From Pseudomonas saponiphila (GTDB lineage Bacteria > Pseudomonadota > Gammaproteobacteria > Pseudomonadales > Pseudomonadaceae): a DNA stretch of 64,000 bases. Position 1 is the first letter of the stretch. The number at the start of each line of letters is the position of its first letter. Under the pieces are notes generated by a model. It saw only the letters and a list, made by a program, of their open reading frames with translations. It had not been told where the DNA came from and did not search any database. The translations under genes and the position numbers were made by a program. Of this stretch, positions 6,225 to 21,970 are shown in pieces. The DNA is taken from contig NZ_FNTJ01000001.1 in NCBI RefSeq assembly GCF_900105185.1, positions 3,306,501-3,370,500 on the forward strand, given 5' to 3'.

Positions 6225-7235
6225 CTAAACCCGAAACATGTCCCCTAGCTGCCGATACAGCTCCATGGGCAAGCGAATCCCTTCTTTTTGCGCCCGAGCC
6301 CAGGCTTGCTGCTTGGCCTGCCCGGGTGGGTGGACGCCCAGACGTTGCAGACGCCGCAGCTGCTGTCCCAGTCGGTTCTCGAACTGTTCATCGAGCAGGT
6401 GCGGGGCGATGGCGATCACCAGCAGCCCTGCTCCGGGCGACTGCCCGCCGCTGCGAAAGTCGGGCGCATCCAGCGACCAGTTGGCCCCGGTAACACCGCC
6501 GGCCAGCACTTCCACCAGCAAGGCAATGTTGGCCCCGCGGCTGCCACCGAATGCCAGCAAGGCGCCGTGCATGGCCTCCCGGGCGCTCAGAGTGGCAGCG
6601 CCCTGGGCATCCACTGCCCAGCCTTGGGGGATCGCCTCCCCGGCCTCGGCAGCCTTGAGGATGTTGACGAAGGCCGTGGCGCTACTGGCCTGGTCGATCA
6701 ATAGCGCAGGCCCGTCACCGCAGGGGGCGGCGAACGCCAGGGGGTTGGTCGAATACATCGGCTGGCGCTGGCCGGCCACGGTCAATAACGGCGGGCCATT
6801 GCAGAAGGCCAGCGCTACCAACCCCTCGCCAGCCAGACGCCGGGTGTAATAGCCCAGTTCGCCACAGGTAAAGCCGTTGTACAGGGCAAACAGGCTGATG
6901 CCCAACTGCCGGGTATTGTCGCGCAAGGCAGCGAAGGCCTGGTCGAACCCCAATTGCGCGATGCCCTGGCGCGCATCACAACGAATCATCGCCGGCGCCA
7001 CCTGAGTCAGCTGCGGCTGGGCCAGGCCGACAATGCGCCCGCTGGCGAACCCTTCCAGGTAATCCAGCAGATGCTCGAAACCCAGGCTGGCCAGTCCATG
7101 GCCCTGGGCCGATACCGTGGCTTCGGCCAGGGCCCGAGCCACTTCCCGGCTGCTGCCGGCGCTCAGGCAGCAGCCCTGGGCAAAAGCCCTGGCCTCTGCC
7201 AGCGATAGGCATTTGAACGCTGCGCTCGCTTGCAT
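6225..7235 (-). CDS. Ldh2/malate-lactate dehydrogenase family oxidoreductase (possible cyclic imino acid reductase)
   Basis: 336 residues, whole family length. The Ldh2 fold is marked by STNPLAFAAP (near residue 160) and GGSRGANIALLVEVLAGG (near 225). These enzymes reduce 2-oxo acids or cyclic imines such as delta1-pyrroline- and delta1-piperideine-2-carboxylate with NAD(P)H; the exact substrate cannot be read from the sequence. It is the last gene of the leftward operon headed by the TMADH-like flavoprotein at 11843, 90 bases after the binding-protein gene. Next to a possible N-methylproline-type demethylase, a role in proline-like substrates is plausible but not shown. Confidence 0.75.
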   Translation of the reverse strand: MQASAAFKCLSLAEARAFAQGCCLSAGSSREVARALAEATVSAQGHGLASLGFEHLLDYLEGFASGRIVGLAQPQLTQVAPAMIRCDARQGIAQLGFDQAFAALRDNTRQLGISLFALYNGFTCGELGYYTRRLAGEGLVALAFCNGPPLLTVAGQRQPMYSTNPLAFAAPCGDGPALLIDQASSATAFVNILKAAEAGEAIPQGWAVDAQGAATLSAREAMHGALLAFGGSRGANIALLVEVLAGGVTGANWSLDAPDFRSGGQSPGAGLLVIAIAPHLLDEQFENRLGQQLRRLQRLGVHPPGQAKQQAWARAQKEGIRLPMELYRQLGDMFRV

Positions 7236-7325
7236 GGACGACTCCCTGAGGCTGCCGCGAAACAGTCTGGTGCACTTGGCCTGAGGCCCGCGCCAGCCGC
7301 CTGGCAGGCGTGTTTGGTGGCCAGG

Positions 7326-8177
7326 TCATTCCACCAGGCGCGGCGTACCGACGTTGGCGACTTGTTTATCCAGGCCGAACGAGCCGAGTATCTCGGCAAT
7401 TTCCCCAGACGCGTGCAAGGCCTGGATATTTTCGTTCAACGCCACCCCCAGCGCGACATTGGCCTTGGTGTGCGGGAAACCGGACTGCCCCGGCTGCAAG
7501 GTGGCCTTGACCCGAGGATCAGGCTCCGAGACTTTGATGCGCTTGCCCTGGTAAGCGCCCTTCTGCTGCGAAGCCACACCAACTGCGAAGCTGTCGATGC
7601 CCAGCGCAATCCGATTCGAGGCCAGGTCCTGCGCCATCGCCACCGGGTTGGGGTATAGCACCAGGTTGTCGCCAAAGGCCTTTTTCAGATCATCGACCCA
7701 CAAGTAACCCTGCACCGTACCGATGCGCTTGCCTTCAAGCTCGGAGATGGTCGAATACCCCTCGTTGGAGATAATCCCCATCATGTCCAGGTACAGCGGC
7801 GCGGACAGGCCCAGGGCCTTGCTGCGCTCGGCGGTACGGTACCAGTCACCGATGCCGACGTCGGCCCGCCGGGCGATCACTGACTGGATCACCGCCGCCG
7901 GGTCGACCACCGTCAGCTTGATGTCCAGGCACTCCCTGGCAGCGATACGCTTGATGATTTCGCCATCGATCCCGCTCAACTGGTTGCCCGGCCCGGGTAT
8001 CGAATAGGGCGGGAAGACCCAGGCCGCGACGCTCAGCACCCCTGGGGTCAGGGTGGTGAACTGGTGGGCCGGCTTGCAGTCCGCCAAGGCCAGGGGTACA
8101 CCGAGCAGGGCCGAGCCGCCCACCAGGGTGGAACAGAGGAATATCCAACGGGTAATGCATTTGAATGAGCGGATCAT
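7326..8177 (-). CDS. ABC transporter periplasmic solute-binding protein, polar amino acid type
   Basis: 283 residues with an N-terminal signal peptide (CITRWIFLCSTLVGGSALLG, cleaved after ...PLALA). It then shows the family 3 binding-protein pattern: GVLSVAAWVFPPYS, IDGEIIKRIAARE, ADVGIGDWYRT and KRIGTVQGYLW. It captures the substrate for the two permeases and ATPase encoded just upstream in the same operon. Family 3 binders bind amino acids, opines and some betaine-like compounds. The ligand is unknown; context with demethylase- and DddP-like enzymes suggests a small zwitterion. Confidence 0.85.
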   Translation of the reverse strand: MIRSFKCITRWIFLCSTLVGGSALLGVPLALADCKPAHQFTTLTPGVLSVAAWVFPPYSIPGPGNQLSGIDGEIIKRIAARECLDIKLTVVDPAAVIQSVIARRADVGIGDWYRTAERSKALGLSAPLYLDMMGIISNEGYSTISELEGKRIGTVQGYLWVDDLKKAFGDNLVLYPNPVAMAQDLASNRIALGIDSFAVGVASQQKGAYQGKRIKVSEPDPRVKATLQPGQSGFPHTKANVALGVALNENIQALHASGEIAEILGSFGLDKQVANVGTPRLVE

Positions 8178-8237
8178 GGCTTCACCTGTGCTTGGATTGC
8201 GTCAATGGAACAGCAGCCGAAAGACGGCCCGAACGGG

Positions 8238-8900
8238 TCACGCGTGCTGGCTGGGCGCCAGTCTTTTCTCCAGCGCCGCCACGCCCAGGGTCGCGGGCGC
8301 GCAGACAGCGGCATACATCAGGCCGGCCAGGGTCAGCACCGGCAGATACTCGAAGGTCGATGAACCGATGGCCGAGGCGCGGCTGACGAGCTCCGGCAGC
8401 GCGATGGTGAAACACAACGACGATGCCTGGAACATCATGATCGAGAACCCCAGCAACGACGGCAGGGCCACCCGCAGCGCCTGGGGCAGGATGATGAAGC
8501 GCAGCGCATCGAAGCGGTTCAGACCGATCACCTCGGCCGCCTCGTTCTGCCCCTGGGCCACGGCCTCGATACCGCCGCGGATGATCTCGCTGGTGTAGGC
8601 CGCGGTGCAGTAAGCCAACGCCACGGCCGCCGCCCAGAAGGAACTCAGGGTCAGGCCGGCCGAGGGCAGGCCGAAATAGACGTACTGCAACAGGATCAAC
8701 GCTGGCGCGCCGCGCCCCAGTTCGACAATCAGCAGCGAGGGATAGCGCACCACCCGACGGGTTGCCGCAACCCCCAGCGCCAGCAGCAAGCCCAGGACCA
8801 CCCCCAGCACCAGGCTGACGGCGGTGACCTGCATCGACAGCACAAAACCCTTCCACAGTTCGGGAAACCAGGCCAGCCACATCGTCAGGATCTCGTTCAT
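8238..8900 (-). CDS. Amino acid ABC transporter permease (HisM family), second permease
   Basis: 220 residues starting [18 protein letters not shown], with about five membrane segments and the permease EAA loop EAAEVIGLNRFDALRFIILPQALRVALP. The ATG at 8900 overlaps the stop of the previous permease (ATGA), with AGAGGG as ribosome site, so translation is probably coupled. A longer frame to 8936 would start inside the upstream gene. It forms a heterodimeric channel with the 8897-9538 product. Confidence 0.88.
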   Translation of the reverse strand: MNEILTMWLAWFPELWKGFVLSMQVTAVSLVLGVVLGLLLALGVAATRRVVRYPSLLIVELGRGAPALILLQYVYFGLPSAGLTLSSFWAAAVALAYCTAAYTSEIIRGGIEAVAQGQNEAAEVIGLNRFDALRFIILPQALRVALPSLLGFSIMMFQASSLCFTIALPELVSRASAIGSSTFEYLPVLTLAGLMYAAVCAPATLGVAALEKRLAPSQHA

Positions 8901-9538
8901 CGGGCCACCCTCTGCTTCAGGGTGGCCGCCAGCCAACGCGAGACTAGCGCCACCGGCACGCTGAGAATCAGGTAGACCAGGGCCGCCACGCTGTACACCC
9001 CCAGCCCCTGAAAGGTCTGCTGGGACAACTGATAGGCCTGGAAGCTGACGTCACCGACGCCAATGGTCGAAGCCACGGCCGAGTCCTTGAGCAAGCCGAT
9101 GGCATAGGTGGCCGAGGTGGGAATGGCGATGCGCACCAATTGCGGCAGCAGCACATCGAAAAACCCCTGGAACGGCGAAAGATTGAGTACCTGCGCCGCC
9201 TCGAACTGCCCCTGGGGAATCGCCGCGAAGGCACCGCGATAGACCTCCGACATGTGCGCTGCGGTGATCAGCCCCAGGCCCAGCACCGCGGCGGCGAACG
9301 GCGACAAGGCAAGGTAGCCGCCACCGATGCCGAAGAAGATGAAGAACAGCCAGACGATCGGCGGAATCGAACGCAACGTCAGCACCAGCATCGCCGCCAG
9401 CCAACGGCACGACTTCAGCTTCGACAGGCGCAGGGCGCAGAGTGGAAAACCCAGCACCACGCCCATGCAGAAGGCGCCAAGGGTCACGCTCAGGGTCCAG
9501 GGCACGCCGTGCAGCAGGACCAATAGAATATCCAGCAT
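8897..9538 (-). CDS. Amino acid ABC transporter permease (HisM family), first permease
   Basis: 213 residues from [15 protein letters not shown]. The EAA loop is [30 protein letters not shown]. The ATG at 9538 shares one base with the ATPase stop (TGATG), and the stop overlaps the next permease by 4 bases. This is a tightly coupled inner-membrane transporter module. The open frame that runs upstream of this ATG is the ATPase gene in another phase and is not coding. Confidence 0.88.
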
Positions 9539-10344
9539 CAGCGATTCCTCACGGCCTGGAGAAACTGCGCCACCCGCGCATGCTGCGGCTTGCGCATCAC
9601 CTCGGCACTGGGCCCCTGCTCGATGATCCGTCCTTCGGCCATGACCACCACGCGGTCGGAAACGGTCTCGGCAAAGTGCATCTCGTGGGTCACCACCAGC
9701 ATCGACATGCCCTCGCGCGCCAGCTCTTTCATCACCGCCAGTACCTCCAGGCCCAGCTCGGGGTCCAGGGCCGAGGTCGGCTCGTCGAACAGCATCAGCT
9801 CCGGCTCCAGCGCCAGGGCCCGGGCGATGGCGATGCGTTGTTGCTGGCCGCCGGAGCAACGTGCCGGGTAGGCGTTGGCCTTGTCCGCCAGGCCCACCCG
9901 GTCGAGCAACTGCAAAGAACGGGCGTCCGCTTCCTCGGCGCTGCGACCCAGGGTGCGGATCTGCGCCAGGCTGACATTGCGCAGCACCGTGAGATGGGGA
10001 AACAGGTTGAACGACTGGAACACCATGCCAATGCGCCGGCGCAGCTTGAGCAACTCGCTCCTGGGCAGCGGGCGCCCGGCCTCGATATGCACCCCACCCA
10101 TGCTGACCCGGCCGCGGGTTGCCGGCTCCAGCTGGTTGATGCAACGCAGCAAGGTGCTCTTGCCGGAGCCGCTGGGGCCGATAATCGCCACCACCTCGCC
10201 TTGGGCCATCTCGAAACACACGTCGTGCAACACCGGGTAAGGACCGAACTGCTTGTGAATCGCCTCCAGGCGCAGAAAGGGTTCGGCGCTGGCCACCGGG
10301 CGCGGCGCCAGGGTGGCGCTGTCGATCACGGTCATGCTGCTCAT
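9538..10344 (-). CDS. Amino acid ABC transporter ATP-binding protein (GlnQ/HisP type)
   Basis: About 268 residues from the ATG at 10344, which has GGAG 8 bases upstream; an in-frame ATG at 10374 lacks one. Walker A is GPSGSGKST, the Q-loop is [14 protein letters not shown], the signature is CSGGQQQR (the usual LSGGQQQR with Cys for Leu), Walker B is [12 protein letters not shown] and the switch is VVTHEM. It powers uptake by the two adjoining permeases. It overlaps the downstream permease by one base and lies 58 bases below the DddP-like gene. Confidence 0.9.
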
Positions 10345-10402
10345 TGTTTTTTCTCCGGACAGGGTAGACGCCATGCCTGCAAGAATCAGGCAACAACCGC
10401 TG

Positions 10403-11710
10403 TTATCGATCGTCGTCGACTAACGGGGTGCGCGAGAGCTTGACCGCTCCAGTCGCGCTGATCAGCACCTGCTCTTCGAGCTTCACGCCTTCATGGCCAC
10501 CTTGCTCGCCGATGTAACTCTCCACCGAGAGCACCATGTTTTCCGCGAAATGGCCGTCATAGCCCCACTCGGCAAAATCCACCGCATAAGCCACGCTGGG
10601 GTACTCGTCCACCAGGCCGACGCCGTGCAGCATCATCATGTAGCGGTTGTGTTCGAACGCTTTGGGCACCGGCCAGCAGCGCTCGGCGAACTCGCGGAAC
10701 GACAACCCCGGGCGCAGCAGATCGAGGTTGCAGCTGATTTGCTGCGAAGCGATGTCCAGCAGCTCGCGCTGGGCCGCCGTCGGCGCTTTGCCAGGGCAGA
10801 TGAAACTGCGGGAGATGTCCGAGAGATAGCCCCCCGGCCCGACCATGTCGGTGTCGAAACAGACCATCTCGCCGGCTTCGATGACCTTGTCCGAGGCGTC
10901 CTGGAACCAGGGGTTGGTGCGCGGCCCGGAGCTCAGCAGGCGGCTTTCGGCCCACTCCCCGCCATGGGCGACGTTGGTTCCATGCATGATGCTCCACAAC
11001 TGGTTTTCGGTGATGCCCGGCACCAGGCTGGCGCGCATGCGGGCAATCGCCAGGTCGCACACATCCATCGACACCCGGTGGCTGGCGATCTCCTGCACCG
11101 ACTTGATCAGCCGCGCCTGCTCCATCAGCGGCTGGGCGTCGAACAGCTGGATGCCCTGGGCCTTGAGTTTTTCCGCGCCCCAGGGGTCGCAGCGGTCCAC
11201 CGCCAGGCGCCGATTGCCAGCGCCATGCCGGGCCATCAGATCCGCCACTTCGAGGGCCCAGCGCTGGGCTTTTTCCTCGACCCGCGGGCCGGCGAGGAAG
11301 TACAGCCAGGGGATCGCCGGACGGATCTCGTCGATGGTTTCGATGGGCTCGCTGTTGTGCCGGCTGCTGCTGAACTCGAACAGCACCACTGGGCCATCGG
11401 TGGCCACGAATACGTAGCGGCTGGGGGAATGCATCACCCACAGACCAAGGTTGTTGGTATCGGTGGCGTAACGAATGTTGATCGGGTCGGCCAGTAGCAC
11501 GCCGGCGTAATCGTGCTTGCGCAATTGCTGGCGGATGCGCTCCAGGCGGTACTGGCGCAGCGCCGGCCGGTCAATCGCGGCATAGGCTGCCAGCAGGTGG
11601 TGATCAACCGGGGCCAAGGCATGGTCGGTGACGCCGGCATCGCTGCGATAGCGCAGCGGGCTTGGGGATACAGCATTGAGCAGCTCGGTGAAATCATTAT
11701 CCGTGTGCAT
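10403..11710 (-). CDS. DddP-like M24-fold protein (candidate DMSP lyase; otherwise M24 peptidase family)
   Basis: 435 residues, the length of DddP dimethylsulfoniopropionate lyases rather than of ordinary Xaa-Pro peptidases. Metal ligands line up with DddP at a constant offset of nine: Asp286, Asp288, Asp298, His362, Glu397, Glu412. The D-x-D start (FDTDMVG) is a DddP feature. Tyr357 and Asp368 match the DddP residues Tyr366 and Asp377 proposed for substrate cleavage. Blocks IRYATDTNNLGLW and GGEWAESRLLSSGPRTNPWF also recall DddP. The alignment is from memory of roseobacter DddP. The gene sits between a TMADH-like flavoprotein and an ABC transporter. An Xaa-Pro peptidase, or an ectoine-hydrolase-like activity, remains possible. 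Confidence 0.7.
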   Translation of the reverse strand: MHTDNDFTELLNAVSPSPLRYRSDAGVTDHALAPVDHHLLAAYAAIDRPALRQYRLERIRQQLRKHDYAGVLLADPINIRYATDTNNLGLWVMHSPSRYVFVATDGPVVLFEFSSSRHNSEPIETIDEIRPAIPWLYFLAGPRVEEKAQRWALEVADLMARHGAGNRRLAVDRCDPWGAEKLKAQGIQLFDAQPLMEQARLIKSVQEIASHRVSMDVCDLAIARMRASLVPGITENQLWSIMHGTNVAHGGEWAESRLLSSGPRTNPWFQDASDKVIEAGEMVCFDTDMVGPGGYLSDISRSFICPGKAPTAAQRELLDIASQQISCNLDLLRPGLSFREFAERCWPVPKAFEHNRYMMMLHGVGLVDEYPSVAYAVDFAEWGYDGHFAENMVLSVESYIGEQGGHEGVKLEEQVLISATGAVKLSRTPLVDDDR

Positions 11711-11842
11711 GCAACAACCTCCGTGGGGAAGAGTTTTGCGTTAATCAAAACCAATCGGACCAACATTCGGGGCAGTGACTTAAAGACCTGGAAAACGGAT
11801 GACGGCTGTCTTTCTTATGGTTCAGGGCACGGCAACAGGTGG

Positions 11843-13879
11843 CTAGAGGTCCTTGACCAGGCGCAGGGCGTCGTAAATCGCCGCGTGGGTGTTACGCGAT
11901 GACACCGCATCGCCGATTCGGAACAACTGGAAGCGCCCCTGGGGGTTGGTCAGCACCCGCTGCGGGTTGCCGGCAATCAGGTCCCGGTACTCCACGGCGC
12001 CCTCGTTGCTGGCCTGGGGCTGGAGCTCGAAATACAGCTCGTCCAGAGGCCGGGTGCCATGGTTGACCACGATCTGGTCCACCAACCGAGTCTTCTCCAG
12101 GTCGCTGTAATCGCTGCCAATGGTCGCCAGCAATTGCTCGCCCTGGCGCTCCACGGCTTTGAGTCGGTAGGTGACGGTGAAGGTGGTATCCAGCCGCTGC
12201 AGCGAGCGCATGTAGGGCACCAGGTTCATGCCCATGACCTCCGGCGCGAACGCGCGGTCGGGGGTCATGATCTCGGTCCTGGCTCCGCTGCGAGCAATGA
12301 ACTCGGCGGCCTGCAAGCCCGCGTGATCACCGGCGTCGTCATACACCAGCACGTTGCGCCCGGGTTTGACGTCGCCGGAAATGATGTCCCAGCTCGACAC
12401 CAGCCACTGGTTGCCGTGCTGCAGGACCTCGGTGTGCGGCAGCCCGCCGGTGGCGACGATCACCACGTCGGGGTTTTCATCGACAACCATCGCCGCGTCG
12501 GCCCAGGTGTTGAAGCGGAACTTGACGCCCAGGCGCTCGCACTGCGCCATGCGCCAATCGATGATGCTGATCATCTCCTTGCGCCGCTCGGACTGCGCGG
12601 TCAGGCGCACCTGCCCGCCGGGCTGATCGGCCACCTCCAGCACCAGCACCTCATGCCCGCGCTCGCCGGCTACCCGCGCCGCCTCCAGGCCGCCAGGGCC
12701 GGCACCGATGATCAGCACCTTGCGCTGTCGCGCAGCCTTGGGCACCTCATGCGGCATGCTGGTTTCGCGGCCGGTGGCGGCGTTGTGAATGCAGTAGGCG
12801 GCGCCGGCGTTGTAGATCCGGTCCAGGCAATAGTTGGCGCCGACGCAGGGCCGGATCTGGTCCTCACGGCCTTCGATGATCTTGCGCACGATATGCGGGT
12901 CGGTCATGTGCGCGCGGGTCATGCCCACCATGTCCACCAGGCCCGAGGCAATCGCATGGCGGGCGGTGGCGACATCCGGGATCTTCGCCGCGTGGAAGGT
13001 CGGGAAGCCGGTCAGGGCGCGAATCTCCCCGGCAAAGTCCAGGTGCGGCGCATTGCGCATGCCCTGGATCGGGATGATGTCGGTCAGCCCGGCATCGGTG
13101 GCGATATTGCCGCGAATCACGTTGAGAAAGTCGACCATGCCGCTGTCTTTGAGCAGTTGCGAAATCTGCAGCCCCTCCTCCTTCTCCAGGCCGCCGGCCA
13201 GTACCTCGTCGCCGGTGTAGCGAATGCCGACGATAAATTCCGGCCCCACCCGCTGGCGGATGGCGCTCAGCACCTCGAAGGTAAAGCGCAGGCGATTGTG
13301 CAGCGAACCGCCGTAGGCGCCCTCCAGCTCGTTGGTCAGCGGCGACCAGAACTGGTCCATGAGGTGGCCGTAGGCTTGCAGTTCGATGCCATCCAAACCG
13401 GCAGCCTGCATGCGTTCGGCGGCGTCGGCGTAATCGCCGATGATGCGTTCGATGTCCCAGATTTCCAGCTTCTTGGGAAAGGCCCGGTGCGCCGGTTCCT
13501 GATTGTGCGAAGGTGACACCACCGGCAGCCAGTCGCCCTTGTCCCAACGGGTGCGCCGCCCCAGGTGAGTGAGCTGGATCATCACCGCCGCGCCATGCTC
13601 GTGGCATTCGTCGGTGAGGTCTTTCATCCAGCCGACCACTTCGTCCTTGTACGCCAGGATGTTGTTGAACACCGGCGGGCTGTCGCGAGAGATCGCCGCC
13701 GAGCCTGCGGTCATGGTCATGGCCACGCCGGCCTTGGCACGCTCGACGTGATAGGCCCGATACAATTTCTTCGGCATGCCCTCTTCGGGGTACGCCGGCT
13801 CGTGGGAGGTGGTGATAATGCGGTTGCGAAGCGTCAGGTGCTTGAGGCGATAAGGCTGAAGAAGCGGATCGTTATTCAT
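11843..13879 (-). CDS. TMADH/2,4-dienoyl-CoA-reductase type flavoprotein, probable N-methyl demethylase
   Basis: 678 residues. An N-terminal old-yellow-enzyme FMN barrel (about 1-335) is followed by the iron-sulfur region and a C-terminal FAD/NAD(P) part with GAGPGG at 392-397. Relatives include trimethylamine and dimethylamine dehydrogenases, dimethylglycine-type demethylases and N-methylproline demethylase, all releasing formaldehyde. The cluster region has Cys345, Cys351 and Cys363 but Ala348 where TMADH has its second cysteine. It is the first gene of the leftward operon. Its promoter faces the TetR gene across a strong inverted repeat. Substrate unknown. Confidence 0.75.
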   Translation of the reverse strand: MNNDPLLQPYRLKHLTLRNRIITTSHEPAYPEEGMPKKLYRAYHVERAKAGVAMTMTAGSAAISRDSPPVFNNILAYKDEVVGWMKDLTDECHEHGAAVMIQLTHLGRRTRWDKGDWLPVVSPSHNQEPAHRAFPKKLEIWDIERIIGDYADAAERMQAAGLDGIELQAYGHLMDQFWSPLTNELEGAYGGSLHNRLRFTFEVLSAIRQRVGPEFIVGIRYTGDEVLAGGLEKEEGLQISQLLKDSGMVDFLNVIRGNIATDAGLTDIIPIQGMRNAPHLDFAGEIRALTGFPTFHAAKIPDVATARHAIASGLVDMVGMTRAHMTDPHIVRKIIEGREDQIRPCVGANYCLDRIYNAGAAYCIHNAATGRETSMPHEVPKAARQRKVLIIGAGPGGLEAARVAGERGHEVLVLEVADQPGGQVRLTAQSERRKEMISIIDWRMAQCERLGVKFRFNTWADAAMVVDENPDVVIVATGGLPHTEVLQHGNQWLVSSWDIISGDVKPGRNVLVYDDAGDHAGLQAAEFIARSGARTEIMTPDRAFAPEVMGMNLVPYMRSLQRLDTTFTVTYRLKAVERQGEQLLATIGSDYSDLEKTRLVDQIVVNHGTRPLDELYFELQPQASNEGAVEYRDLIAGNPQRVLTNPQGRFQLFRIGDAVSSRNTHAAIYDALRLVKDL

Positions 13880-14006: not shown

Positions 14007-14654
14007 ATGAAAGCGATCAGCAACAGTGCCGAGGCCGCCGGACGCGGCTCCCTGGAAAGCTGGCTCAACGCAGCCTATGAAAGCCTCAAGGAGTCGGGAG
14101 TGGATGCGGTACGGGTGATGCCCCTGGCGAAGAAACTCAACCTGTCGCGCACCAGTTTCTACTGGTATTTCCAGGACCGCGAAGCCCTGCTCGAAGCCCT
14201 GGTGAACCTGTGGAAGAATAAGAACACCCTGAGCCTGGTGTCGCAGTCCGAGGCCTATGCCGAGTCCATCACCGAGGCGATTCTCAACGTCTTCGATTGC
14301 TGGCTGAACAGCGAATTGTTCGATTCGCAATTCGAATTCGCCATGCGCAGCTGGGCCCTGCAATCCCCCGAAGTGGCCCAGGAAATCCGCCAGGCCGACG
14401 CCCAGCGAGTACAAGCCCTGGCAAAGATGTTCGACCGTTTCGGCTTCACCGAGGACGCCGCCGTGACCCGCGCGCGCTCGATCTACCTGACCCAGATCGG
14501 CTACATCAGCATGAACACCCAGGAACCGCTGGCGCAGCGCATGCGCTACATCCCCGAATACCTGCAGATCTTCACCGGCGTTGAGCCCCAGCCCCGGGAG
14601 CTGGAGCGTTTCTTTCAGCGCAACGGCTTTTCATCGGCCGAACTGCAGCATTGA
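14007..14654 (+). CDS. TetR-family transcriptional regulator
   Basis: 215 residues. The N-terminal HTH is at about 15-60: AAYESLKESGVDAVRVMPLAKKLNLSRTSFYWYF is the classic TetR signature. A helical ligand-binding domain follows. The ribosome site AAGGA lies about 13 bases before the ATG. It is divergent from the TMADH/DddP/ABC operon and is therefore its most likely local regulator, acting through the dyad at 13926-13966. The inducer is unknown. Confidence 0.88.
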   Translation: MKAISNSAEAAGRGSLESWLNAAYESLKESGVDAVRVMPLAKKLNLSRTSFYWYFQDREALLEALVNLWKNKNTLSLVSQSEAYAESITEAILNVFDCWLNSELFDSQFEFAMRSWALQSPEVAQEIRQADAQRVQALAKMFDRFGFTEDAAVTRARSIYLTQIGYISMNTQEPLAQRMRYIPEYLQIFTGVEPQPRELERFFQRNGFSSAELQH

Positions 14655-14743: not shown

Positions 14744-16363
14744 CTATCGAGAGGCATCCTCAAGAATCAGATCAGCGCCCTTCTCCGCCACCATCAGCAC
14801 CGCCGCATGGGTGTTGCCGGAGGTGACGTTGGGGAAGATCGAGGCATCGACAATGCGCAGCCCGGCCAGGCCATGCACCTTGAGGCGTTTGTCCACCACC
14901 GCGCGCTGCTCGTCGCGGCCCATGGCGCAGGAGCCGCACAGGTGGTAGATCGAGCCGCTGTTCTCGCGAAAGTACTGCAGCATCTGCTCATCACTGGCCA
15001 CCGCCGGTCCCGGTAGCACTTCATCCAGGGTGATGCCCTTGAGCGCCGGGGCCTGCATGATCCTGCGCAGCAGGCGGCTGCCCTGGATCACCTCGGCAAT
15101 GTCCTTGTCGGTACTCAGGTAGTTGGGGTCGATCAGCGCCGCATCCCGAGGGTTCTTCGAAGCGATCCGGATGCTGCCGCGGCTGGTGGGCCGGCACGGG
15201 TTGAAACACAGCAGAAAGCCGGAGTACGGCTCGGGCTTGAGGCTGGCCTTGCTGCTCTTGGGAATCTGGTACGACAGCGGGTTGAAATACAGCTGCAGGT
15301 TGGGGTGCTCCTGCCCTTCGTCGCCGCGGAAAAAGCCACCGGCCTGGTTGACGCTCATCGCCAGCGCGCCCTTGCGCGTCAGCAGGTATTGCAGGCCCAG
15401 CTTGAGCTGGCCGAACAGCGAGCTGAGCTGGTCGTTGAGGGTCGGGACATTGGCCTTGTAGTAGTAGCTGACGCACAGGTGGTCCTGCAGGTTCTGCCCC
15501 ACCGCCGGCAGATGTCGCACCAGCGGAACCTGGTGCCGGGCCAATAACTCGCGATCACCCACCCCGGACAGTTGCAGGATCTTCGGCGTGTCCACCGCGC
15601 CGGCGCAGAGGATCACTTCCTTGCTGGCGCTGAAGGTCCGGACCACTCCGTGCTGGGTCACACTGACCCCCGTGGCGCGCTGCTTGTGCTCATCGAACAG
15701 CACCCGGTCGACCAGCGCGTAATGCTCGACCTTGAGGTTCGGCCGGCGCAACGCCGGATGCAGATGGGCAAAGCTGCTGGAGCAACGCTGACCGTTGCGG
15801 GTGTTGACGTCGTAGATCCCCGCGCCTTCGAATCTGGCTCCGTTGAAATCCTCGCTGCGCGGGTAGCCCAGTTCCTCGCAGCCTTTGAGGAACGCATCAC
15901 AGATGGGGTGGGTCTGCCCCTGCATCGGGGTGATGCTGATGGGACCGCTGGCACCGTGGTACTGGCTGTCTCCCAGGGGATGATTCTCCAACTTGCGGAA
16001 ATACGGCAGCACCTCGTCGAAGCTCCAACCGTCGTTGCCGTCGGCCGCCCAGTCGTCGAAATCATGGGCCTGGCCGCGCACGTAGATCATGGCGTTGATC
16101 GAGCCGGAACCACCCTGGACCTTGCCCCGTGGAGCATAAATGGCCCGGTCATTGAGCTGTTTCTGCGGTTGGCTGTAGTACATCCAGTTGAAACGCGGGT
16201 TGTAGTACATCTTGGCAAAACCCACCGGAATCTTGAACCAGAACGATGAGTCCTTGCCGCCCGCTTCCAGCAGCAATACCGAGTATTGGCCCGAGGCCGA
16301 GAGCCGGTTGGCCAGAACGCAGCCGGCGGCGCCGGCGCCGGCGATGATGTAGTCGTATGTCAT
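14744..16363 (-). CDS. GMC-family FAD oxidoreductase (choline/alcohol dehydrogenase-like)
   Basis: 539 residues. The FAD fold begins YDYIIAGAGAAGCVLANRL (GAGAAG at 8-13); GMC signatures are PRGKVQGGSGSINAMIYVRG (near 80-97) and the GAVDTPKILQLSGVG block (near 255). The C-terminal active-site region reads IYHLCGSCAMG...VVDKRLKVHG with the conserved histidine. Family members oxidise primary alcohols, choline or polyols to aldehydes. It is the last gene of a leftward operon after the enolase-superfamily dehydratase (78 bases between). The aldehyde dehydrogenase heading this operon could take its product further. Not convincingly BetA itself. Confidence 0.85.
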   Translation of the reverse strand: MTYDYIIAGAGAAGCVLANRLSASGQYSVLLLEAGGKDSSFWFKIPVGFAKMYYNPRFNWMYYSQPQKQLNDRAIYAPRGKVQGGSGSINAMIYVRGQAHDFDDWAADGNDGWSFDEVLPYFRKLENHPLGDSQYHGASGPISITPMQGQTHPICDAFLKGCEELGYPRSEDFNGARFEGAGIYDVNTRNGQRCSSSFAHLHPALRRPNLKVEHYALVDRVLFDEHKQRATGVSVTQHGVVRTFSASKEVILCAGAVDTPKILQLSGVGDRELLARHQVPLVRHLPAVGQNLQDHLCVSYYYKANVPTLNDQLSSLFGQLKLGLQYLLTRKGALAMSVNQAGGFFRGDEGQEHPNLQLYFNPLSYQIPKSSKASLKPEPYSGFLLCFNPCRPTSRGSIRIASKNPRDAALIDPNYLSTDKDIAEVIQGSRLLRRIMQAPALKGITLDEVLPGPAVASDEQMLQYFRENSGSIYHLCGSCAMGRDEQRAVVDKRLKVHGLAGLRIVDASIFPNVTSGNTHAAVLMVAEKGADLILEDASR

Positions 16364-16441
16364 GCAGGGTTACCGCTCAGATGGTATTGAAGGCAGCCGC
16401 AACGGCTGCCCATGCCCTGCCCGTCACCGGGCGGGAAGTGC

Positions 16442-17659
16442 TCAGCCCTTGGCCGGGGAGGTGTCCTTGACGTCGACCGGGCTCGCGGCCATTTGCAGGT
16501 GCAGACGTTCGCCGCTGTAGGGCGAGTGCCTGCGTACCACGTCCATGTTCAGCTCCACCCCCAGGCCCGGCTCGCTGGACGGGATGATGTAGCCGTCCTC
16601 CCATTGCAAAGGCTTGGTCAGTACTTCGGCGTGGAAGCCGCCCCAGGTCATGATGCTTTCCTGGATCAGGAAGTTCGGCGTGCAGGTGGCCAGCTGGAAG
16701 CTCGCCGCCGCGCCGATCGGCCCGTTGTACAGGTGCGGCGCGATCTGCGCGTAGTAGGCCTCGGCCATGCTGGCGATCTTCTTCGCCTCCAGCAGGCCGC
16801 CACAGCGCGCCACGTTCATCTGCAGGATCGAGGCACCACCGGCCTGCAGCAGCTTGAAGAACTCGTACTTGGTGGTCAGGCGTTCGCCGGTGGCGATCGG
16901 AATGCTGGTCTTGGCCGCCACTTGCGCCATGGCCTGCTCCTGGCCTGGCGGCACCGGCTCCTCGAACCACAGCGGGTCGTATTGCTCCAGGCGCCTGGCC
17001 AGTCGAATGGCCGAGGACGGCACCATCTGCCCGTGGGTACCGAACAGCAGGTCGCAGCGGTTGCCCACCGCTTCACGGATCTTGCGGCAGAAGCTTTCGC
17101 AACGCTCCAGCACTTCCAGCGACAGCTGATGCCCGGAGTACGCGGTGTAGGGCCCGGCCGGGTCGAACTTCAGGGCAGTGAAGCCCTGGTCCATGTTGCG
17201 TACCGCACACTCGGCGGCCAGGTCCGGGTCGTCGTAGTCGTATTCACCACGGCTGTTCTGCGGATACAGATAGGTGTAGGAGCGCAGGCGTTCGTGGACC
17301 TTGCCGCCCAAAAGCTCATACACCGGCTTGTTCGCCGCCTTGCCGATGATGTCCCAGCAGGCCATCTCCAGGCCGCTGACCACGCCCATCATGGTCAGGT
17401 CCGGGCGCTGGGTGAAACCGCTGGAATAGGCCTGGCGGAAGAAGCGTTCGATGTGGTGCGGATCCTGGTCCAGCAGGTAGCGCTGAAACACGTCCTCGAT
17501 GATCGGCCGCATCGCCTGGGGACCGAAGGTGGCAGCATAGATCTCGCCCACGCCTTCGATGCCGCAGGCAGTGCGCAGCTTGACGAACAACCAGTACATG
17601 CCGCCGATATGCGGTGGCGGAACAGCAACGATATGGGTTTCAAGGGCGACGATTTTCAT
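16442..17659 (-). CDS. Mandelate racemase/enolase-superfamily dehydratase, sugar-acid type
   Basis: 405 residues with the enolase-superfamily capping domain and barrel. Likely metal ligands are Asp203, Glu233 or Glu234 in WFEEP, and Glu259 in TGERLTTKYEF. The catalytic His309 sits in APHLYNGPIGAAASFQL, and a lysine occurs in TALKFDP at 161-167. These features fit the acid-sugar dehydratases (galactarate, gluconate, mannonate types) more than epimerases; the substrate cannot be fixed from sequence. Its ATG lies one base after the MFS stop (TGAGATG), so the two are coupled. With the carrier and AldA-like dehydrogenase it suggests catabolism of a sugar acid. Confidence 0.82.
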   Translation of the reverse strand: MKIVALETHIVAVPPPHIGGMYWLFVKLRTACGIEGVGEIYAATFGPQAMRPIIEDVFQRYLLDQDPHHIERFFRQAYSSGFTQRPDLTMMGVVSGLEMACWDIIGKAANKPVYELLGGKVHERLRSYTYLYPQNSRGEYDYDDPDLAAECAVRNMDQGFTALKFDPAGPYTAYSGHQLSLEVLERCESFCRKIREAVGNRCDLLFGTHGQMVPSSAIRLARRLEQYDPLWFEEPVPPGQEQAMAQVAAKTSIPIATGERLTTKYEFFKLLQAGGASILQMNVARCGGLLEAKKIASMAEAYYAQIAPHLYNGPIGAAASFQLATCTPNFLIQESIMTWGGFHAEVLTKPLQWEDGYIIPSSEPGLGVELNMDVVRRHSPYSGERLHLQMAASPVDVKDTSPAKG

Positions 17660-17660
17660 C

Positions 17661-18983
17661 TCAGGCTCCTGCTGGCAAATGCTGTTGGGTACGTTTGACG
17701 CGAGCGCGCAAAGCGATCGCGGCCAGGGTGCCGAGGGCGCCGACCGCGGCGATGTAGCCGAAGTACAGGCGGTAGCCCAGGGCCCCGGGGAAATGTTCGG
17801 TGAGGTAGCCGTTGATCAGCGGAATAAAGGCGTCCGGCAGGTAGCCCACCACCGAGACAATGCCGATGGCCAGGCCGGTGATGCGCAAGGGAATCCGGCA
17901 GGTATCGAGGATTGCCCAGTACAGCCCGCGGATGGCGTAGGTCATCAGGCCGATGAAGATCACCGTGGCAATCAACAGCCCCAGGCTGCCCAAAGCCGGA
18001 AACAGGATCAGCCCGACGACGCCCAGGGTGGCCAGCAACAGGGCGAAGATCAGCACCGAGATATTCGAGAAACGGTCGCCCAGCCAGCCGCCGCCAATGC
18101 CTCCCAGCGGCCGCATCCACAACTTGATGGTGGTGATGGTGCCGGCCATGACCGCGGTCATGCCATTGCCCTGCAGGTAGTCGGAGAAGCTGTAGGTGGC
18201 CCAGAAGATGTGGTAACCGCAGAACACGATGGCGGTCACCAGCCACAGCTCGGGGATCTTCACCAGGGTCGCCAGGTCGCTGAACAGGTTGAAACGCCCC
18301 TGCTCCACCGGCGCCGTGTCTTGCATGGACTTGGGGTCCTTGAGCAGCACCAGGACGCAGCCGATGGCAATGCAGGTGAAGGAATACAGATAGACCACAT
18401 GCCGGAACCCCTCGGCCGTCGACTCACCACGAGTCTCGGTGGCCAGGGCGAACAGCCCCAGGGCCAGGGTCGCCAGCAAGGCTTCCACCAGGCCACGGCC
18501 ACCGTCGAGGATGCCGAAGAAACGCCCCTGCTCGGTGTGGCGGGCGATCATCTTCACCCGCTTGAGCACCGAGGCCCAGAACGTCAGCCCGGTGGTCAGC
18601 CCCCAGCAGCCGAAGATGATCATCAGCCAGGTCAGTGACGGCGCCGTGGAGTACCACAGACCCAGGGCGCCGGTGGCCACCAGCGAGAAGAAGATCAGAA
18701 AGCGCGGAGCGATGCGGTCCGCCAGCCAGCCGCTGGGCAGGTAGCTGACCAGGAAGATGGTCCCGAGCATGGAGTACAGGTAGCCCAGCTCGCTGTGGTT
18801 GATGTGCAGCACCTCAAGCATGGTGGTCTGGTAGACCTGGCGCAGGTAGAGGATCGGGTAGATCGCCCCGGCGGCCAGCACCAGCAGCATCAGTTGAAAG
18901 TACCGACTGCCCTTGTCACTGTCGCTCGCTGGCAACCCGGCAGAATCCTGAGCCGAGATCAGATCGGCTGCATGCTTAGACAT
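17661..18983 (-). CDS. MFS transporter, probable sugar-acid carrier
   Basis: 440 residues, about 12 membrane segments. The start MSKHAADLISAQ at 18983 has GAGG upstream; the longer frame to 19058 lacks one. The loop after TM2 is SYLPSGWLADRIAPRFLIFFS, the usual MFS G-x-L-a-D/R signature in variant form. The protein resembles the anion/organophosphate-type MFS carriers. It lies between an aldehyde dehydrogenase and an acid-sugar dehydratase in one leftward operon and probably imports that pathway's substrate. The 143-base gap to the dehydrogenase holds repeated GGCTTGCGGCTT-like words. Confidence 0.82.
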   Translation of the reverse strand: MSKHAADLISAQDSAGLPASDSDKGSRYFQLMLLVLAAGAIYPILYLRQVYQTTMLEVLHINHSELGYLYSMLGTIFLVSYLPSGWLADRIAPRFLIFFSLVATGALGLWYSTAPSLTWLMIIFGCWGLTTGLTFWASVLKRVKMIARHTEQGRFFGILDGGRGLVEALLATLALGLFALATETRGESTAEGFRHVVYLYSFTCIAIGCVLVLLKDPKSMQDTAPVEQGRFNLFSDLATLVKIPELWLVTAIVFCGYHIFWATYSFSDYLQGNGMTAVMAGTITTIKLWMRPLGGIGGGWLGDRFSNISVLIFALLLATLGVVGLILFPALGSLGLLIATVIFIGLMTYAIRGLYWAILDTCRIPLRITGLAIGIVSVVGYLPDAFIPLINGYLTEHFPGALGYRLYFGYIAAVGALGTLAAIALRARVKRTQQHLPAGA

Positions 18984-19126
18984 AACGATGCCCTCGGGCG
19001 CCGGTATCCGGCGCCGCTCATTATTATTAGTGGGGCAGCGGCAAGCTTTGAGCTTCAAGCGGCAAGAACGACTGCGCTGCTCTGGCTTGCGGCTTGTGGC
19101 TTGCGGCTGATGACTTGCAACTGCCT

Positions 19127-20551
19127 TTAGAAAGGCATGACCACCAGGCGGGTCTGGGTGAACTCGAGCATGCCGTGCTTGCCGTCGTCACCGCCCAGCC
19201 CTGAGCGTTTCCAGCCGGCGTGGTAGCCCTGATAGGGGTCGGCCGGGGTCCGGTTGACGTACAGCTCGCCGGCCTGGATGGCCCCGGCAACCTTCATCGC
19301 GGTGCGGTAGTTCTCGGTGTAGAGCACCGAAGCCAGGCCGAACTGATGGTCGTTGGCCAAGGCCAGGGCTTCATCGATATCCCGGTATTTGAGCACCGGC
19401 AGCACCGGACCAAAGATTTCCTCCTGCACGATCTCCATGTCCTGACGGCAGGCGCTGAGCAGCGTCGGCGGATAGAAATGCCCTGGCCCTTGCGGCATCA
19501 CACCGCCGGTTTCGAGCACCGCACCTTGCGCGACGGCTCGCTGCACCAGGCCATGAATGGCGACCCGGGACGCCGCGCTGACCAGGGGCCCCATGCGGCT
19601 TGGGTCCTGGCGCCGGTCACCGAACTGCACGGCGGCGATCTTTGCCTTGAGCAGGGCCAGGAAGCGCTGATGCACGCTTTCGTGGACATAGACCCGCTCC
19701 ACCGCCGTGCACAACTGGCCGCAGTGGGTGGTCTTGGAAGCCACGATGGCGCTGGCGGCCTGCTCCAGGTCGGCGTCGGGCTCGATGATGGCCGGGGTCT
19801 TGCCCCCCAGTTCCAACGATGGCTTGGCGATATTGGCCTTGCAGTAGTCGAGCACGATACGCCCGGCATTGACGCTGCCGGTCAGGGTGATCATGCCCAC
19901 CGCCGGGTGGGTGCAGACCGTGGCGGCGGTGGCGTGGTCCATGGTCAGAATGTTCACCACTCCAGGCGGCAAACCCGCTTGCTGCACCGCCCGAGCGATT
20001 TCGAAAGCCGAAAGCGGCGTGTTGTTGCTCGGACGCACCACCACCGTGTTGCCGGCGATCAAAGCGGGCGCGACCTTGCGCAGCAGGGTGTAGACCGGGT
20101 AGTTGAACGGGATCAGGCAGGCCACTACGCCAATCGCTTCGCGGTGCAGAAACAGCTTCTCGTCGGGGCTGTCGCTGGGAATGATCTCGCCCTCGATACG
20201 CCGCGCCCACTCAGCGTGATAACGGGTGATCTGCGCGGCGTAGCGGGCCTCGTTGCTGGCGTCCGCCAGGCTTTTGCCCGACTCGGCCGCCAGCGCCCGG
20301 CCAATGGAATCGGCGCGGGCTTCCAGGGCGTCGGCCAAGGCACGCAGATAATCGCCACGCTGGATGCTGGTCAGCGCTGCCCATTTTTTCTGTGCCGCGC
20401 AGGCGGCAGTCACTGCACCGTGGGCCTCTTCCTGGGTGGCGGCCGAGACATGCCCCACAAGGCTTTCGTCGGCCGGGTCATAAACCGCGATGGATGCGCC
20501 GCTGGCTGGCTTGATGAAGTCGCCGTTAACAAAATTCTGTTCAAGTTGCAT
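19127..20551 (-). CDS. Aldehyde dehydrogenase, AldA (lactaldehyde/glycolaldehyde) type
   Basis: 474 residues from MQLEQNFVNGDFIKP at 20551; the open frame upstream to 20800 is not protein-like. NAD(P)-dependent ALDH motifs: LIPFNYPVYTLLRK, LTGSVNAGR, ELGGKTPAII with the catalytic Glu, HCGQLCTAVERVY with the catalytic Cys, and EEIFGPVLPVLKY. The C-terminal NRTPADPYQGYHAGWKRSGLGG is characteristic of AldA-like enzymes. It oxidises an aldehyde to the acid in the cytoplasm. It heads the operon with the MFS carrier, dehydratase and GMC oxidoreductase, and its promoter region carries a motif shared with the LysR/porin promoter. Confidence 0.85.
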   Translation of the reverse strand: MQLEQNFVNGDFIKPASGASIAVYDPADESLVGHVSAATQEEAHGAVTAACAAQKKWAALTSIQRGDYLRALADALEARADSIGRALAAESGKSLADASNEARYAAQITRYHAEWARRIEGEIIPSDSPDEKLFLHREAIGVVACLIPFNYPVYTLLRKVAPALIAGNTVVVRPSNNTPLSAFEIARAVQQAGLPPGVVNILTMDHATAATVCTHPAVGMITLTGSVNAGRIVLDYCKANIAKPSLELGGKTPAIIEPDADLEQAASAIVASKTTHCGQLCTAVERVYVHESVHQRFLALLKAKIAAVQFGDRRQDPSRMGPLVSAASRVAIHGLVQRAVAQGAVLETGGVMPQGPGHFYPPTLLSACRQDMEIVQEEIFGPVLPVLKYRDIDEALALANDHQFGLASVLYTENYRTAMKVAGAIQAGELYVNRTPADPYQGYHAGWKRSGLGGDDGKHGMLEFTQTRLVVMPF

Positions 20552-20806
20552 GAAGGTTGCCCCGTCGTTGGCAGAGAAATGGCGCAGGCAGCCTGGAGGC
20601 GATCCAGGCCCGGCGGTCAAAGGGTCTGGCGTGGTCGAGCGGGCACAGCACAGCGATCCACAAACATGGCGATGACGTGCGGGCAAGGCTGGGAAACGCC
20701 GACGAAGGGCAGCGACGGGCAATCGGCAAGGATCGGATACGGCATGGCTGAGCACTCGGGTTGTTGTTATGTGAGTGCTGGCAGTCTTGTCGTCCGGCAC
20801 GACAAG

Positions 20807-20838
20807 GACAAACGATTAATCGCGCGGACTAACATGCG
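20807..20838. promoter_or_regulatory. Promoter motif of the aldA-type operon shared with the LysR/porin control region
   Basis: GACAAACGATTAAT (20807-20820) overlaps AATC-N5-GACTAACATGCG (20818-20838). The second can be read as a LysR dyad, TTAATC-N5-GACTAA. Nearly the same two words occur at 21971-22028. A perfect hairpin CTTGTCGT-N5-ACGACAAG lies just before (20786-20806). The rest of the 419-base gap (20552-20970) holds the likely promoter and a REP pair. Confidence 0.6.
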
Positions 20839-20883
20839 AAAAACGCAGGTTATGACGCACTGATGATGGTGGCCTGACGGACC

Positions 20884-20956
20884 TCTTCGCTGGCAAGCCA
20901 GCTCCTACGCAGGTTGTGCATGTGGGCTTTGGTAGGAGTCGGCTTGCCGACGAAGG
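20884..20956. repeat. Inverted REP pair
   Basis: CTTCGCTGGCAAGCCAGCTC (from 20884) and GTAGGAGTCGGCTTGCCGAC (from 20932) face each other after the LysR stop. They match the REP family of this genome. Confidence 0.75.
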
Positions 20957-20970
20957 CGGTCGCGCGGCCT

Positions 20971-21912
20971 CTAGCCCAGGGGCCTGGAGGCTGTGGAGGG
21001 CTCAAGCTGGCGCTGCGCCAGCCAGACTTCCTCTTGCAGCCACTGGCCAAACACCTGCAGCTGCGGCAACGGAGCCTGGGCCGGACGCGTCACCAGCCAG
21101 TAGGACTGGTGACCTTCCACATGCACGTTATGCACCTGGGTCAACTGCCCCGCCGCCAGTTCCGCCGCCACCATGTGCCAGTCGGCAATGGTGATTCCCA
21201 GGCCATCGGTGGCCGCATGGATGGCCAAGTCCAGAAGATCGAATTCATAGCCGCCCTGAGTATCGACCCCGCTGATCCGCGCGGCATCCAGCCAGTGCTT
21301 CCAGGTCAGGTAACGCTGGTCTTCCCGGGCCAACACATGCAACAGGGTCATGCGGCCGAGGTCGATGCCCTGATCCGTGGACTCCCGGGCCAGGAGCGAA
21401 GGCGCGCAGACGGCGATGTGCCGTTCCTGAAACAACAGCGAACTGTCCAGGCCGTCCCACTCGCCATTGCCGAAGCGAATCGCGCAATCCAGGGTCGCGG
21501 TTTCCGCCAGGCTGTCCTGCAGACGCGTGGTCAGGCTCAGCTCCAGTTCCGGGTGCTGCTCGCGCAGCCGCCCCAGGCGCGGCAGCAGCCAGCGACTGGC
21601 GAAGGTCGGTGGCGCGTTGAGGTGCAAGCGATTGGTATGGGATTTCTGCGCGATGCCGCGCAGCGTCAGCTCGATCTTGTCGAAGGACTGGTGCAGGGCC
21701 CGCAGCAGCACACGCCCGGCGCTGGTCAGCTCCAGGTGATGATGGCGCCGTTGCAGCAGGCTTTCCCCCAGCTGTTCCTCCAGTTGCCGGACCTGGCGGC
21801 TGACCGCACTCTGGGTGACGTTGAGCAATTCGGCGGCCCGGGTAAAGCTGCCGGTGCTGCCGGCGACCTCAAAGGCCTTGAGCGCATTGAGCGCAGGCAT
21901 CTTGCGTTTCAC
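20971..21912 (-). CDS. LysR-family regulator (GcvA-like)
   Basis: 313 residues if started at the GTG at 21912 (VKRKMPALNALKAFEVAG), which has AGAGAG upstream; the ATG at 21900 is the alternative. HTH: FTRAAELLNVTQSAVSRQVRQLEEQLG. The effector domain is of the GcvA/AmpR type (NAPPTFASRWLLPRL, LDCAIRFGNGEW). It is divergent from the porin gene at 22234 and lies behind the aldA-type operon. A shared motif in both control regions makes it the likely regulator of both. Confidence 0.88.
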   Translation of the reverse strand: MKRKMPALNALKAFEVAGSTGSFTRAAELLNVTQSAVSRQVRQLEEQLGESLLQRRHHHLELTSAGRVLLRALHQSFDKIELTLRGIAQKSHTNRLHLNAPPTFASRWLLPRLGRLREQHPELELSLTTRLQDSLAETATLDCAIRFGNGEWDGLDSSLLFQERHIAVCAPSLLARESTDQGIDLGRMTLLHVLAREDQRYLTWKHWLDAARISGVDTQGGYEFDLLDLAIHAATDGLGITIADWHMVAAELAAGQLTQVHNVHVEGHQSYWLVTRPAQAPLPQLQVFGQWLQEEVWLAQRQLEPSTASRPLG

Positions 21913-21970
21913 GACAGTCTCTCTGTAACGGCTGCACAAGGCGCAGAGCATCGCATGCCATCACAGGCGG

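Follow-up and report, generated by a model that had tools for sequence, protein, structure and literature searches.

A DddP-like M24 protein in a putative N-methylproline-type operon of Pseudomonas saponiphila

What might a relative of DddP do in a soil Pseudomonas? M24 proteins of the DddP type and cupins of the DMSP_lyase type are the folds that contain the best-known bacterial lyases of dimethylsulfoniopropionate (DMSP), which cleave this compound with millimolar Km values. The window, i.e., the whole 64,000-nucleotide stretch of Pseudomonas saponiphila DNA analyzed here, comes from a host that belongs to the P. protegens group, with 96% to P. idahonensis and 94% to P. protegens, and encodes a DddP-like M24 protein that an earlier note, made from the sequence alone, had called a candidate DMSP lyase. 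Such an operon in a soil Pseudomonas hints at a role of DddP-like enzymes before marine DMSP, and may give this host access to a nutrient of plant origin.

An operon with an HpbA/StcD-type flavoprotein

The operon runs in the order hpbA-like gene, M24 gene, ATPase, two permeases, substrate-binding protein (SBP) and Ldh2, with every gene on the minus strand and intergenic gaps of 132, 28, -1, -40, 60, and 90 bases. A TetR gene is encoded divergently at a distance of 127 bases from hpbA (Table 1). Gene order, strand and spacing thus bear out the earlier view that a demethylase-like flavoprotein, an ABC transporter and an Ldh2-type reductase share an operon with the M24 gene.

Table 1. Genes of the operon and its divergent regulator (window coordinates).
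Feature	Position	Strand	Remarks
Ldh2 (MLD2) family reductase	6225..7235	-	PF02615, 241 bits
ABC substrate-binding protein	7326..8177	-	SBP_bac_3
ABC permease 2	8238..8936	-	EhuD/EhuC-like
ABC permease 1	8897..9538	-	213 aa; start overlaps ATPase stop; from ORF list
ABC transporter ATPase	9538..10374	-	polar amino-acid type, GlnQ/EhuA-like
DddP-like M24 enzyme	10403..11710	-	435 aa; full-length real ORF; metal ligands, Y357, D368, W91
hpbA/stcD-like N-methylproline N-demethylase	11843..13879	-	678 aa; Oxidored_FMN + FAD domain, TMADH/OYE type
TetR regulator	14007..14654	+	divergent from hpbA; often retained beside hpbA

The flavoprotein is 74.9% identical over 100% of its length to HpbA of Paracoccus aestuarii, which is named N-methyl-L-proline N-demethylase, and ca. 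75% identical to its counterparts in rhizobia, among them a protein that carries the name N-methylproline demethylase. Its nearest paralogue in this genome shares 43% identity and is presumably DgcA-like, as its position near a GbcA-like Rieske gene suggests. The match on pSymB of S. meliloti (75.1% identity) would be stcD itself, described in PMC12239276 as the N-methylproline demethylase of stachydrine catabolism. By homology, the flavoprotein is an HpbA/StcD-type N-methylproline demethylase, and because of this ca. 75% identity to HpbA and an N-methylproline demethylase the operon most likely serves an N-methylproline-type compound. We put the probability that the genes at 6225-13879 and the TetR gene are dedicated to uptake and breakdown of an N-methylated proline-type compound at roughly 80%. 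The flavoprotein thereby lends support to the other half of the earlier proposal, in which the substrate was DMSP "or another methylated zwitterion".

The HpbA/StcD loci of Paracoccus and rhizobia share hpbA (ca. 75%) with this operon as well as the divergent TetR gene in L201, L202, L204, and L205, and L202 and L204 additionally have a betaine-type ABC importer and a ProC-type reductase; among 37 phylum-wide loci (L201-L237), a TetR gene adjoins hpbA in 20. However, the gene following hpbA is a cupin in L204 and L205 (and, by position, in L210 and L213), a Rieske gene in L203 and something else in L201 and L202, and no M24 gene was found within 6 kb downstream of hpbA at any of the 37 loci. 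Genes for electron-transfer flavoprotein subunits, possibly encoding the electron acceptor of HpbA, lie near hpbA in L204 (16722-18426), L210, L213, L237, L283-L286, and L290.

Relationship of the M24 protein to DddP

In a phmmer search against solved structures, the M24 protein matched RdDddP (4b28, E 3.2e-83) and RlDddP (4rzy, 3e-82) well ahead of the first other M24 structure (1.6e-13), so that the likeness to DddP is not due to chance. The metal ligands D286, D288, D298, H362, E397, and E412 align with D295, D297, D307, H371, E406, and E421 of RlDddP, and Y357 and D368 pair with Y366 and D377. The constant offset of nine that had been pointed out for the six ligands and two proposed catalytic residues was thus confirmed, if only for the C-terminal domain; it is four in the N-terminal domain, where W91 aligns with RlDddP W95, which is probably the tryptophan at the sulfur. 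A Trp and a Tyr are described as binding the DMSP sulfur, and where peptidases have two histidines, DddP has Asp and Phe instead (PMC5395565); in our own alignment, D368 and F269 occupy both of these places. A predicted structure ranked four DddP chains at the top (TM 0.84-0.86, 35-38% identity), followed among the 50 matches listed by prolidases and other M24 enzymes (TM 0.59-0.69), though the model is of moderate quality (mean pLDDT 76, with values under 50 in several loops of the active site) and too weak for pocket arguments. With DddP as its closest solved relative, the protein has rightly been called DddP-like.

Membership in DddP proper is a different matter. The M24 protein scores 353.5 bits with the NCBIfam model for DddP (NF043017) and does not reach its cut-off of 600, which is passed in 17 of 398 sampled Pseudomonadota genomes (41 of the 398 match at E<=1e-60); the wider family is large, with 6862 of 7999 scored candidates matching at E<=1e-30. 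A tree was built from 82 of 186 rows by taking a single representative of each 80% cluster, after removal of four copies of the gene itself, a short fragment, and two outgroup sequences with a wrong longest ORF. Its 13 DddP rows formed one group (SH-aLRT 100), and the query fell outside this clade of characterized DddP proteins into a separate 18-row clade (SH-aLRT 99) together with Burkholderiaceae, alphaproteobacterial, and actinobacterial proteins. A topology test, whose groups were named after inspection of the tree and which omitted nine further outgroup or long-branch rows, rejected a tree in which the query's group of eight shared one clade with 15 DddP rows (p-AU 1.6e-54). There are 31 positions that hardly vary among the DddP rows or within the 18-row clade of the query but carry different residues in the two.

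The query grouped neither with peptidases nor with ectoine hydrolases, the two placements that a phylogeny had been expected to distinguish from DddP. An Xaa-Pro peptidase (M24B) was rejected on model scores and on the residues at the two substrate-binding histidines. The ectoine hydrolase DoeA/EutD shares the M24 fold, and ectoine-type ABC models match a permease of the operon below their cut-off, but the M24 protein reaches only 27.8 bits against a cut-off of 575 for NF038259; TIGR02993 had no match in this genome at E<=1e-40.

Nearly all subclades of the superfamily keep the six ligands, Y357, and D368; the exceptions are a seven-row subclade with Gly368, the outgroups, row L137 on its long branch, and a single row of the query group that is gapped there. 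These diagnostic DddP residues are also present in subclades adjoining Rieske, MttB, or DMGDH genes. Being common to the superfamily, they place the protein within it and not among DMSP lyases, and we no longer read them as demonstrating DMSP cleavage. Both flanking blocks and the D-x-D variant, which had been thought to fit DddP, are indeed present, though they mark the DddP-like superfamily and are not specific for DddP. The subclade with the catalytic Asp changed to Gly (L165, L142, L166, L136, L139, L143, L052) has Arg at position 94 and keeps the metal ligands; it probably catalyzes a different reaction. Another M24 clade of Pseudomonas (L159-L164) is nearer to DddP than the query is, and several of its members lie in Rieske, glycine-betaine transporter, or hydroxyproline-type clusters.

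A DMSP (or DMSOP) lyase in an operon that uses DMSP would explain the presence of every DddP catalytic residue with the Trp/Tyr pair and the RlDddP and RdDddP structures as nearest relatives. Moreover, FgDddP from a fungus shares 32% identity with RdDddP and is active (PMC4108388), and a side activity of the M24 protein on DMSP is therefore quite possible. This explanation is nevertheless opposed by the model score, by the position outside the DddP clade, and by the sharing of the residues with subclades that adjoin N-demethylation genes. It also fits poorly with the operon, in which the adjoining gene encodes an N-methylproline demethylase homologue, no acrylate or DMSP gene was found among the genes scanned, and the TetR regulator scores 21.4 bits against an AcuR cut-off of 247; conversely, none of eight DddP-clade loci has any of the demethylation or ketimine-reductase genes sought. 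In addition, R. leguminosarum J391 was used as a host unable to catabolize DMSOP (PMC10686828), although relatives of both the M24 and the cupin family occur in R. leguminosarum strains other than J391. We thus consider a DMSP lyase very improbable, and "candidate DMSP lyase" does not hold up as a physiological role: the M24 protein is probably not primarily a DMSP lyase and would instead be a DddP relative that may well cleave DMSP in vitro as a side activity.

Recurring gene neighborhoods

The module of TetR, hpbA, M24, ATPase, two permeases, and SBP genes recurs in Pseudomonas (L007-L009, L148-L150) and Burkholderiaceae (L011-L015), with a few genes intervening between hpbA and M24 in L015. 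A ketimine-reductase-family gene is present in eight of the ten modules with sequence well beyond the SBP gene, as Ldh2 in the window, L148, L149, and L015 and as the unrelated OCD family in L011-L014, and none was found nearby in L007 and L150. This count leaves out L008, where the contig stops just behind the SBP gene, L009, which is probably from the strain of L150, and L010, where the contig begins after hpbA and OCD is present, and does not cover G609 and G663. OCD and MLD2 (Ldh2) are described in PMC4113996 as alternative reductases of Delta1-pyrroline-2-carboxylate, the proline ketimine. The nearest solved structure to the Ldh2 protein, a PF02615 member, is the Delta1-piperideine-2-carboxylate (Pip2C) reductase 1wtj (151 bits), and the Ldh2 protein reaches no NCBIfam equivalog cut-off; the best model for the OCD protein of L014 is a Pyr2C/Pip2C reductase (249.6 bits, under the cut-off of 322).

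Two MAGs show related arrangements: the Acetobacteraceae MAG L019 has the gene order M24, OCD, hpbA, and in L018 PutA comes after the M24 and OCD genes, an arrangement that suggests proline as the product. As a point against ketimine formation by M24, L012 carries a D-amino-acid-oxidase-family gene that could be a ketimine source, as could a similar gene in L018 judged by its first residues only. Across 298 Pseudomonas genomes, a DddP-like M24 protein was detected in 56 at E<=1e-60, and only six, including this genome, encode one that is at least 80% identical to the query.

The relative G427 resembles a natural knock-out: hpbA (87%) is accompanied by the same TetR and ABC genes, but the stretch separating hpbA from the ATPase gene measures only ca. 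0.4 kb, and there is no M24 match to the query at E<=1e-60; instead, a Rieske oxygenase (74% to that of R. etli L004) and its reductase (61%) are encoded ca. 5 kb downstream. This pattern suggests that the same N-methylproline step can be entered either through M24 (with Ldh2) or through the Rieske pair, with the counterexample of L015, where M24, Ldh2, and a Rieske gene occur together. No Rieske oxygenase dedicated to stachydrine was found in the genome under study, where the best of ten Rieske loci matches the quaternary-amine references at 37-45%.

For a wider view, we compared 56 hand-picked loci representing non-DddP M24 clusters (some clusters by more than one locus, some loci with incomplete flanks) with 40 control stretches drawn from M24- or DddP-bearing genomes and with the eight DddP-clade loci. 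In a separate reading of gene neighborhoods, nine loci gave no M24 ORF with the ORF picker used. N-demethylation genes (HpbA, Rieske, MttB, or DMGDH/Sox type) were found at 24 of the 56 loci and ketimine reductases (Ldh2, OCD, or ProC type) at 12, compared to 0/40 and 0/8 for either category. Without the seven loci that had supplied references, the numbers are 18/49 versus 0/40 (p 3.8e-6) and 10/49 versus 0/40 (p 0.0016), where the p-values are descriptive only because the neighbor categories were picked after the loci had been seen. Of 14 loci in the query's own clade, eight have a ketimine reductase and seven a demethylation gene; the link to ketimine reductases is therefore thin outside this clade (4/42 M24 loci). 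Several relatives in Rhizobium, Paraburkholderia, and Pseudomonas lie in hydroxyproline-type clusters, which hold a Rieske oxygenase, a glycine-betaine transporter, and hydroxyproline catabolic genes beside M24. At 32 Mesorhizobium/Aminobacter loci in the range between L036 and L085, a DddP-like M24 gene lies a few kb from genes for an MttB-family methyltransferase and a DMGDH-like protein, in an arrangement that is conserved across these loci.

A candidate elimination reaction and the cupin lyases

At the level of sequence, the operon combines an HpbA/StcD-type demethylase, an amino-acid ABC importer, Ldh2, and an M24 protein with intact metal, base, and onium-binding residues. In the mechanism proposed for DddP, the DMSP carboxylate sits on iron with the sulfonium held by Trp/Tyr, and Asp377 takes the alpha proton upon which dimethyl sulfide is expelled (PMC4108388, PMC5395565); the M24 protein retains equivalents of all these residues. 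From the observed residues, gene set, conserved partners, and non-orthologous replacements, we infer the following substrate, reaction, and direction. The substrate carboxylate would be bound at the binuclear metal site with its cationic nitrogen held against W91/Y357, and D368 would abstract the alpha proton so that the beta substituent is expelled. From the chemistry, a candidate substrate would be a beta-hydroxylated (N-methyl)proline such as 3-hydroxy-N-methylproline, whose dehydration would give Delta2/Delta1-pyrroline-2-carboxylate. This ketimine may then be reduced to (N-methyl)proline by Ldh2 (or OCD in Burkholderiaceae), and HpbA would strip the methyl group to yield proline. Such an alpha,beta-eliminase feeding a ketimine reductase in an N-methylproline-type operon is our tentative preference for the M24 protein, at somewhat less than even odds.

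The trans-3-hydroxyproline pathway (t3HypD with OCD or MLD2) shares the proposed product and the families of its reductase. Its known dehydratases are, however, proline-racemase-family enzymes according to PMC4113996, in place of the M24 protein and N-demethylase of this operon. We detected no member of the proline-racemase family around the Halobacillus-type relatives L052, L054, L070, L078, and L079. PMC4113996 also describes 3-hydroxyproline dehydratase neighborhoods in Bacilli that hold unspecified peptidase families beside OCD, where a peptidase partner would fit better than a second dehydratase, and this counts against an eliminase. The M24 protein could accordingly be read as a hydrolase, i.e., a dipeptidase or amidase that releases a proline-type amino acid from a conjugate, and besides the Bacilli neighborhoods this reading can draw on the prolidases as next-best fold matches behind DddP and on relatives in L018, L019, and L027 that adjoin peptide-type ABC transporters. 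We regard it as decidedly unlikely given that Asp and Phe replace both peptidase histidines, that RlDddP is inactive on Val-Pro (PMC5395565), and that family models assign the importer of the window to the amino-acid and not the peptide type.

Alternatively, the M24 protein might be an epimerase that removes and returns the alpha proton of (N-methyl)proline or a betaine to serve stereospecific enzymes. The D368 base and the metal site suit such proton abstraction, and related M24 proteins are found in clusters with proline-racemase-family and D-hydroxyproline-dehydrogenase-type genes. Yet these clusters already have an annotated racemase or 4-hydroxyproline epimerase gene, and DddP, to our knowledge the only characterized relative, eliminates and does not epimerize, which makes an epimerase unlikely in our judgment.

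The eliminase reading gains support from the cupins at hpbA loci, whose DMSP_lyase family brings this type of elimination in a second, unrelated fold. The gene immediately after hpbA in R. leguminosarum (L204) and on pSymB of S. meliloti (L205) is annotated as dimethylsulfoniopropionate lyase and matches Pfam PF16867 (DMSP_lyase) with 188.7 and 221.8 bits, respectively, and the four PDB matches of the L204 cupin are all DMSP lyases including DddQ. Just 5 of the 37 phylum-wide loci have a cupin within 5 kb of hpbA; other rhizobial hpbA loci such as L202 have none, and no PF16867 protein was found in the genome under study. Among the 298 Pseudomonas genomes, hpbA is present in 56 and the cupin in 18, of which 14 have hpbA (co-occurrence, Fisher p 2.7e-8) and 12 have the cupin within 5 kb of it. 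Six Pseudomonas genomes have M24 within 150 bases of hpbA, none of them with a cupin, and five further ones have it at 6-10 kb. In four of these five (G518, G519, G564, and G600), cupin and M24 lie within one cluster; with both near hpbA, M24 and cupin are not simply interchangeable, which weakens a one-for-one replacement.

It is conceivable, if rather doubtful, that both unrelated folds share an older task, the alpha,beta-elimination of a (N-methyl, hydroxy) proline-type compound after its uptake and ahead of HpbA, and that DMSP cleavage is a marine recruitment of both from proline-betaine catabolism. If both folds indeed belong to N-methylproline operons in bacteria from soil and plants, the ancestral substrate would be directly testable, and counts of "dddP" or cupin "DMSP lyase" genes in soil and plant metagenomes could exaggerate DMSP cycling. 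Our literature search, in which subscription literature was thinly covered, returned no paper that ties DMSP lyases to proline-betaine catabolism (PMC10030565 and PMC7876524 contain both phrases) and no M24 gene named in betaine clusters.

Two other features of the window lie outside this operon. The block at 14744-21951 encodes a GMC oxidoreductase, a mandelate-racemase-type enolase, an MFS transporter, an aldehyde dehydrogenase, and a LysR regulator, and is found again at 82-94% in Pseudomonas L165 and L167 (the GMC oxidoreductase seen in L165 only), where it adjoins a different M24 protein. At the left window edge, positions 12-845 encode an IS21-like IstB helper ATPase.
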